Assembly (NCBI GenBank): GCA_947577065.1
Contig: CANPTT010000006.1
Location: forward strand, 1 to 64,000
Direction: 5' to 3'
From: an uncultured Pseudoflavonifractor sp.
GTDB taxonomy: Bacteria; Bacillota; Clostridia; Oscillospirales; Oscillospiraceae
Length of the DNA: 64,000 bases
Shown here piece by piece: positions 40,736-42,623 of the stretch. Position numbers and translations under genes: made by a program. Under the pieces are notes generated by a model. The model was not told the DNA's origin and ran no database searches. It was given only the letters and a program-made list of their open reading frames with translations. The number at the start of each line of letters is the position of its first letter. Positions within the stretch are counted from its first letter, which is position 1.

Positions 40736-40954
40736 ATGTTTGATGCAAAAATATTTGGGCAACGGCTCTTTTGCCTTAGAAAGCAGCTGGGCAAAACACA
40801 AGCCGATATTGCAAAATTATTAGGGGTCACTCCTACTCAAGTCAGCGATATGGAGGGGGGCAAAACTGGCACCACAATGCCCCGTCTCTGCCTCCTCTGC
40901 GACTACTTCAACGTCTCCGCCGATTATCTTCTGGGTCGTACAGATTCCAAGTAA
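40736..40954 (+). CDS. XRE-family HTH regulator (short)
   Basis: RLFCLRKQLGKTQADIAKLLGVTPTQVSDMEGGKTGTTMPRLCLLCDYFNVSADYLLGRTD. Confidence 0.88.
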   Translation: MFDAKIFGQRLFCLRKQLGKTQADIAKLLGVTPTQVSDMEGGKTGTTMPRLCLLCDYFNVSADYLLGRTDSK

Positions 40955-40995
40955 GATGATTGCCAGCAAATTTATCACTGCGTGGTTGCGAAAGA

Positions 40996-41021
40996 CCATT
41001 CTTTGACGGGCCAAAGAATGG
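40996..41021. repeat. Perfect inverted repeat (hairpin 1 of non-coding mosaic)
   Basis: CCATTCTTTG-ACGGGC-CAAAGAATGG, extended imperfectly by flanking GCGAAAGA/CCTCTCGC. Confidence 0.8.
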
Positions 41022-41209
41022 CCTCTCGCGCTCTCCAAGAAAGCCCTAAGGTCAAGACCATGTGTTCTGAAGTCGGCTCTTGCGCCTTTTCGCTCCCTGG
41101 TTCTTCTTGCCCCGCACCCGTGCGTACGCAAGCGGAACACAGAAAGAAAGTTCGTTGAAATCACGCCGCCTCTATCCTACACAGCTTGATGCCTGGTTCT
41201 TCTCAGGGC

Positions 41210-41231
41210 GGGCCGATGAGGATATCGGCCC
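41210..41231. repeat. Inverted repeat (hairpin 2 of mosaic)
   Basis: GGGCCGAT-GAGGAT-ATCGGCCC. Confidence 0.75.
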
Positions 41232-41383
41232 CTACGGGAGGGAGGGTCCTGCGGCCCTGCCGCCACCTCAAAGCCCACGGAGTTTGGGCGGATCAACGGT
41301 CAGCTCCACCAGAAAAAAGGCCATAACCAAAGGTTTGTGTCAAATCGCAGGGGGGCTTGACCCCCAACATGAAAGCCTGGGGT

Positions 41384-41407
41384 CCAGGGGGCCCGCAGGC
41401 CCCCTGG
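41384..41407. repeat. Inverted repeat (hairpin 3 of mosaic)
   Basis: CCAGGGGGCC-CGCA-GGCCCCCTGG, perfect 10-bp stem. Confidence 0.8.
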
Positions 41408-41422
41408 TGCTTTTCTGGGGGT

Positions 41423-41460
41423 CCGGGGGGCGTCTTTTTGCACAAAAAGATGTCCCCCGG
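41423..41460. repeat. Long inverted repeat (hairpin 4 of mosaic)
   Basis: CCGGGGGGCGTCTTTTTG-CA-CAAAAAGATGTCCCCCGG; 16/18 Watson-Crick plus two G.T wobbles in plus orientation. Confidence 0.8.
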
Positions 41461-41558
41461 GCTTCCCACCTATCAATGTTGCTCATCGGATGGGCTAAAC
41501 GTGGTACCGCCTACATCAGACTGTCAGAACATCATTTTCCAGAAAGGAAGTCCTTACT

Positions 41559-42623
41559 ATGAACCACCTGAAACAGATCGCCGCCAAGCTATCCGAGTTC
41601 CATATTGACGCCATGCTCTGCTCCTCCGAGCCCGGAGAGTTCTATGCCGTAGGTCTCCACGGGGAGGGCTACGCCATTGTAACGGCTGACGCCGCCCGGT
41701 ATATCACCGACTCCCGGTACATCGAGGTCGCCAACGAGACCGTGAAGGACGCCGAGGTCATTATGGTGGACGGACAGAGGAACTACGCCGCCGCCCTCAA
41801 CGAGTTTATTGACGCCCACGGCGTTAAGACTCTGGGCATTGAGGATGGGTATATGTCCCTGGGGCAATATAACGCCCTTACCAAGGACCTTCACGCCAAG
41901 CTGGTAAATGCCAACGGACTTATTACCGGCCTGCGCGCCAGCAAGGATGAGGAGGAGTTTGCCCGGATGGTGAGGGCCCAGGAGATCACCGACAGGGCCT
42001 TTGCCGAGATCCTGAACTTTATCAAGCCCGGCATGACCGAGGCGGAGATTGCCGCCAAGCTGGTCTACGACATGATGCGCTTTGGAGCCCAGCGGACCTC
42101 CTTCGATCCCATCGTGGCCTCCGGGCCCAACGGCAGCAAGCCCCACGCTATCCCCGGTCCCCGCCAGGTCCAAAAGGGAGAGTTCATCACCATGGACTTT
42201 GGCTGCGTCTATGAGGGCTACTGCTCTGACATGACCCGAACTGTGGCGCTGGGAGAGATCGACGGGGATAAGCGCCGGGTCTATGACACCGTGCTGGCCG
42301 CTCAGAAGGCGGGCATTGCCATGTCCAAGGCCGGTGTCCCCGGCGCGGACATCCACAAGGCCGCCGCCCAGGTCATCCAGGAGGCGGGCTACGGCCCCTA
42401 TTTCGGCCACGGCTACGGTCACAGTGTGGGCATCGAGATCCACGAGTCCCCCAACGCCAACTCCCGGGACCACACCCCCATGCCTGTGGGGGCCATGGTG
42501 TCCGCCGAACCGGGCATCTATCTCCCCGGCCAGTTCGGTGTGCGCATCGAGGATGTGGTCCGGATGGACCAGGGTGGCTGCACCGACATCACCCACTCCC
42601 CCAAGGAGCTTATCATTCTGTAA
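41559..42623 (+). CDS. M24 family Xaa-Pro aminopeptidase/dipeptidase
   Basis: TMDFGCVYEGYCSDMTRTVALGE, GYGHSVGIEIHESPN, SAEPGIYLPGQFGVRIEDVV metal ligands. Confidence 0.95.
   Translation: MNHLKQIAAKLSEFHIDAMLCSSEPGEFYAVGLHGEGYAIVTADAARYITDSRYIEVANETVKDAEVIMVDGQRNYAAALNEFIDAHGVKTLGIEDGYMSLGQYNALTKDLHAKLVNANGLITGLRASKDEEEFARMVRAQEITDRAFAEILNFIKPGMTEAEIAAKLVYDMMRFGAQRTSFDPIVASGPNGSKPHAIPGPRQVQKGEFITMDFGCVYEGYCSDMTRTVALGEIDGDKRRVYDTVLAAQKAGIAMSKAGVPGADIHKAAAQVIQEAGYGPYFGHGYGHSVGIEIHESPNANSRDHTPMPVGAMVSAEPGIYLPGQFGVRIEDVVRMDQGGCTDITHSPKELIIL

Follow-up and report, generated by a model that had tools for sequence, protein, structure and literature searches.

In an Oscillospiraceae gut bacterium, a gap of ~600 bp lies between an XRE gene and an M24 peptidase gene. 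The question addressed here is what this tract is, and whether the hairpins it contains belong together. The window (the whole stretch of DNA analyzed, 64 kb) comes from a 2.0-Mb assembly of 64 contigs, in which it is contig C6. A first-pass annotation had described the tract as carrying multiple independent strong hairpins and no convincing CDS, and had offered two readings, namely REP/MITE-like elements nested at this position or a structured non-coding RNA.

Inverted repeats and coding potential of the tract

All of the four inverted repeats claimed in the first-pass annotation were found at, or close to, the positions assigned to them. Compared with dinucleotide shuffles, the RNA folds of the first (40984-41033; -21.6 kcal/mol, z -3.7) and the last (41418-41466; -37.4 kcal/mol, z -7.4) far exceed chance folding, while the two middle ones do so modestly (41205-41240, -16.6 kcal/mol, z -2.2; 41376-41413, -25.8 kcal/mol, z -2.0). 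Strict inverted repeats, defined by a stem of at least 10 with at most one mismatch, occur twice in the tract, whereas the rest of the window predicts 0.43 and shuffles give 0.14. The scan for intrinsic terminators returned two plus-strand candidates, 41384-41407 and 41411-41430, and the T run is broken in both. The hairpins are thus real, and strong in the case of the outermost two, but the latter are not independent of each other, being the inverted ends of one element (see below).

No open frame in the tract gave a significant Pfam match (e.g., 41080-41562, 160 aa). In the copies of the 5' module, no frame is kept open and no 3-base periodicity was seen. A coding gene was rejected on these grounds, in line with the first-pass annotation, and the element lacks coding capacity in the same way as MITEs do. 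An origin from a phage or plasmid was also rejected, as searches of plasmids, phages, and viral contigs returned no matches.

Variation at the XRE-M24 junction

The orthologous XRE-M24 junctions of two genomes (G009 and G010) are devoid of the element: the XRE stop is ~20 bp before the M24 start, and the ribosome-binding site of M24 directly follows the XRE stop codon. The orthologous M24 sites of three others (G011, G007, and G008) carry related elements of different composition, and that of G002 carries other hairpins. As the site is empty in the first two genomes and differently filled in the other four, DNA was gained at this junction within the genus, with varying composition. The termini of filled and empty sites are too diverged from each other for a target-site duplication to be defined. 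The element may affect M24.

The first and last hairpins as inverted ends

A covariance model, R1, was built from 37 hairpins, with the right end of the window left out. R1 recognized the left hairpin and, on the opposite strand, the right hairpin (E 8e-7), the preference for the opposite over the same strand at the latter being just 5 bits; no third site was found below E 0.75 in the 64-kb window. Aligned directly, the two ends of the window bear a weak resemblance to each other. Among neighboring hairpin pairs located within 1 kb of each other in 80 sources, 20 of 21 are convergent and 490-885 bp apart, mostly 490-640 bp; these loci were selected because they had hits, and G007 and G008 share some of them as orthologs, which makes the sample neither random nor fully independent. 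When the left and right ends were aligned in G007, G008, and G010, the same layout was seen past the hairpin. Altogether, the first (40988-41029) and last (41418-41465) hairpins are the inverted ends of one non-coding element of ~550 bp, and the element has terminal inverted repeats like a MITE, the right end being found inverted by R1 and the pairs being convergent. The features of the element and its flanks are summarized in Table 1.

Table 1. Features of the ~550-bp element and the flanking genes (window coordinates)
Feature	Position	Strand	Basis or remark
XRE/HTH_3 gene	40736..40954	+	Upstream flank; family match
Whole ~550-bp non-coding element	40957..41511	+	Left end lost in part; outer limits deduced from copies
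Left terminal unit: covarying hairpin 40988-41029 and pyrimidine mirror repeat CCTCTCGCGCTCTCC	40977..41044	+	CM R1 91.9 bits; covariation; fold z -3.7
Interior module, P core, conserved	41036..41207	+	Common to own-genome copies and G007/G008; non-coding
Nested GTAG-tagged REP palindrome GTAGGGGCCGAT-ATCCTC-ATCGGCCC	41210..41235	-	Pattern search; copies in relatives
Rare interior module C	41245..41400	+	Other copies only in G014, 85-86% identical
GC-rich palindrome CCAGGGGGCC-CGCA-GGCCCCCTGG, adjoining right end	41384..41407	+	Inverted repeat; fold
Right terminal unit, inverted counterpart of left, hairpin 41418-41465	41409..41470	-	CM R1 36.0 bits (-), 31.1 (+); fold z -7.4
Probable right terminus, reverse complement of GGCGGTACCACG, resembling the GGTGGTACCGTTTG terminus of other copies	41500..41511	-	Inferred
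Peptidase_M24 gene	41559-42623	Same direction as XRE/HTH_3 gene	Family match

The left hairpin is the start of a conserved block of ~250 bp, which in other copies runs on into a second block, Q (~290 nt), that the window lacks. Block Q appeared as a separate, highly repeated, and strongly conserved non-coding module in its own right (L126-L138 of G004, L121, L122, and L139-L146), and neither covariation nor a coding signal was detected in its copies. One copy (C11) has a 20-nt match to the GC-rich palindrome of the window ahead of its right end, and some copies (C54 and C16) differ at the 3' end. Since the 3' ends of the latter differ, part of the mosaic could be a product of recombination and not of transposition. 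Directly after the 3' arm of the end hairpin comes its mirror copy (e.g., CCTCTCGCGCTCTCC and CCCCTCAGACTCCCC), at 41022-41038 in the window and in ~61 terminal units of related loci; the arms are symmetric in most of the 61 sites, which represent a few haplotypes only. Such a mirror repeat might form a triplex. A T-box reading of the GGTGGTACCG terminus was discarded, as there was no Rfam match and the parts are in the wrong order.

Covariation and strand polarity of the end hairpins

Double changes were found in 11 of the 17 pairs of the end hairpin, a count that does not equal the number of independent events, the hairpin copies being related. Paired cells amount to 97.0%, against 85.9% after shuffling, and the covariation score is 0.368, compared with 0.163 in shuffled alignments (0 of 500 reaching it) and at most 0.148 when the structure was slid. 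Several separate double changes are needed, because the hairpins fall into several subfamilies: GAAAG/CTCTC, GGGGG/CCCCC, GAAGG/CCCTC, variants with either GC or CT at the base of the stem, and L142 with its altered apical stem.

The mismatches are polarized. On the inward strand, A.C, the one mismatch that is frequent, occurs in 49 cells and G.T in 4, and A.C on this strand is G.U on the outward one; two columns (21/55 and 24/52) supply almost all of the A.C cells, and elsewhere A.C and G.T account for 4 cells each. At 73 of 86 sites, it is the outward-read strand that folds better. This polarity points to an RNA read outward, DNA-level causes being possible as well, and the end hairpins may act at the RNA level.

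In block Q, no double change was seen in 30 predicted pairs, and block P outside its hairpin shows very little. Covariation of the grade expected for a structured RNA is thus confined to the end hairpins and excludes the interior modules. A search of Rfam found no family matching the tract. The structured-RNA alternative of the first-pass annotation may hold for the strongly covarying end hairpins but extends neither to the interior modules nor to a known RNA family.

Copies in the own genome and across the genus

By BLAST, a check of the kind proposed in the first-pass annotation, the tract gave 17 matches in its own genome including the window, the longest of the other blocks measuring 225-265 bp and being 86-88% identical. 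Throughout the genus, members of the family lie between genes, in dozens of copies. R1 matched 14 of the 16 genomes of the genus and two genomes outside it (119 searched), with 42 matches, both strands counted, in the single-contig genome G010. The records matching the exact hairpin motif are MAGs of Oscillospiraceae bacteria. The unit occurs in both orientations relative to genes, and its copy number and composition differ between species. The family is dispersed, multicopy, and mostly intergenic, as MITEs are. Instead of a single-copy tract absent elsewhere and free of covariation, we found copies, relatives, and covariation; the nested REP/MITE-like reading was borne out by the copy number, the covarying hairpin class, the empty orthologous sites, and the GTAG REP nested in the tract.

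The genomes compared are mostly MAGs with gaps at repeats. Eight contigs of G004 (C141, C85, C50, C83, C28, C75, C94, and C44) start inside the right-end module (first 150 bases). This repeat thus breaks the assembly, and its copies are probably undercounted.

The nested GTAG REP and RAYT genes with internal REPs

GTAG REPs are recognized by a GTAG tag beside a stem of 5-13 bp with a loop of 2-20 nt, and the palindrome in the window has the tag, an 8-bp stem, and a 6-nt loop. A single motif of this kind is roughly what chance would yield in 64 kb, and its significance rests on the copies: the pattern was found in 14 of the 119 genomes, with 88 sites in G034, whereas the reversed-pattern control gave 0. 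The own genome has just one exact copy of the window REP and, as for transposases of this kind, a decayed Y1 transposase only. An independent nesting was seen in G013 (L274:700-1500), where these GTAG REPs form an inverted pair just after the interior block.

RAYT-like proteins of the same bacterial family (Oscillospiraceae) were gathered by protein similarity alone; they matched NF047646 with E 3e-19 and 5e-18, below the cut-off, and Pfam Y1_Tnp near the cut-off. At 23 of the 33 loci, a GTAG palindrome lies within the matched RAYT frame, and at 20 of the 33 an inverted REP pair does so, near nucleotides 100 and 270. The frames hold 43 palindromes, whereas codon-shuffled frames yield 0.22. Within a single gene, the first 12 nt of the two REPs are 98% identical, compared with 71% between genes. 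The REPs internal to the RAYT genes of G034 and G087 share the stem of the window REP, and in both genomes they are inside the frame, not flanking it.

RAYT-like HUH genes with an in-frame inverted REP pair at conserved positions were observed at L266, L275, L273, L244, L245, L249, L251-L257, L259-L262, L265, L269, L271, L084, and L088, with stems that differ between genes and match within a gene. Longer RAYT-type proteins of 248 and 272 aa (L082 of G005 and L236 of G034, respectively) have no GTAG REPs in or beside the gene; L236 has one distant GTAG palindrome.

Rayt genes have been described as always flanked by REPs (PMC2817692), and both intragenic REPs and flanked RAYTs have been described (PMC3733652). 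Flanking by inverted REPs is an optional trait of the family, and REPtrons may be missing. Our literature search met no description of REP pairs lying within RAYT frames, which is not proof of absence. Judging from these sequences, the gene and message of a RAYT enzyme would hold the very sequence on which the enzyme is thought to act, and the REPs of each gene would change together.

Nature of the element

We propose that the tract is probably a MITE-like, non-autonomous element of ~550 bp with hairpin ends and a nested GTAG REP. Such an element would have entered the XRE-M24 junction within this clade. Each end is an inverted unit of ~70-100 bp, comprising the conserved hairpin and then the pyrimidine mirror repeat, and non-coding modules that can be exchanged make up the mosaic interior. 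The hairpin-bearing ends were presumably recognized by a transposase acting in trans. The nested GTAG REP is of the kind associated with RAYT HUH transposases, and its mobilization by a RAYT is suggested by the relatives. The end hairpins are kept by compensatory change, the likeliest selected form being an RNA hairpin in transcripts exiting the element, because the recurrent mismatches become G-U on the outward strand. No autonomous partner of the ~550-bp element was found in the loci examined. A 4.1-kb autonomous candidate in G010 was rejected as its interior consists of host genes, and RAYT/IS200 was rejected as the carrier since the ends of the element do not border the Y1 transposase genes of the genus.

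A structured ncRNA or untranslated-region element of ~550 nt with a host function and many copies would account for the strong covariation of the end hairpins, their G-U-compatible polarity on the outward strand, and the conservation of blocks P and Q. We consider it unlikely, as there was no Rfam match and little or no interior covariation, copy number and composition vary among species, the unit has no fixed orientation relative to genes, and it is missing at orthologous sites. Less likely again is a chance pile-up or recombination of unrelated short palindromes (REP/BIME-like) at a permissive intergenic site, with no whole mobile unit involved; the mosaic composition with its differing 3' ends, the REP nested in the tract, and the several kinds of palindrome carried by different species at the XRE-M24 site agree with it, but the convergence of nearly all end-hairpin pairs and their narrow spacing across genomes do not. 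That the tract comprises the remnants of a decayed gene or prophage is hardly credible: the 160-aa open frame spans the tract, yet the frames lack family matches, the copies keep no frame, and the phage and plasmid collections and viral contigs gave no match. As for the MITE-like element and the nested REP taken together, we see evenly balanced chances for a wider reading, in which a genus-wide mosaic family of ~550 bp has inverted, covarying hairpin ends selected on the outward-read strand and used by a putative transposase, and the REP belongs to systems whose RAYT gene carries its own inverted REP pair in frame.

Comparison with known systems

The bacterial MITEs listed in PMC3733652, including RUP, NEMIS/Correia, bcr1, and ERIC, are 70-300 bp in size. 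The present element shares with them its non-coding nature, dispersed intergenic copies, inverted ends, strong secondary structure, and presumed mobilization in trans. Unlike them, it is ~500-640 bp long, with hairpin-to-hairpin distances of 490-885 bp, and we term it MITE-like rather than a MITE because its size is out of their range. It also differs from them in that a covarying hairpin and, next to it, a pyrimidine mirror repeat make up each end and in that the interior consists of exchangeable modules, with no transposase or target duplication found.

The nested palindrome resembles GTAG REPs and RAYT REPtrons (PMC2817692; PMC3733652) in its tag, stem, and loop, in its dispersed copies in relatives, and in the presence of RAYT genes in the same bacterial family. 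On the other hand, the host belongs to Bacillota, a phylum that is not among the GTAG REP hosts in PMC3733652 (Proteobacteria, Cyanobacteria, Chloroflexi, and PVC), and, unlike in REPtrons, where inverted REPs flank the gene, the pair here sits within the open reading frame of the cognate RAYT genes. TIRtrons and the TIR repeats of TIRYTs (PMC3733652) are similar in having long inverted ends, some with stem-loops, and in forming moderately abundant families, but we found no gene for a tyrosine transposase lying between ends of this sort.

Few descriptions exist of the intergenic repeats of gut Clostridia, which interrupt MAG assemblies, and the definition of this ~550-bp family accounts for contig ends as well as spurious ORFs. 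A transposase whose own reading frame contains the REPs that it presumably mobilizes would provide a direct and testable case of coevolution between an enzyme and its target.
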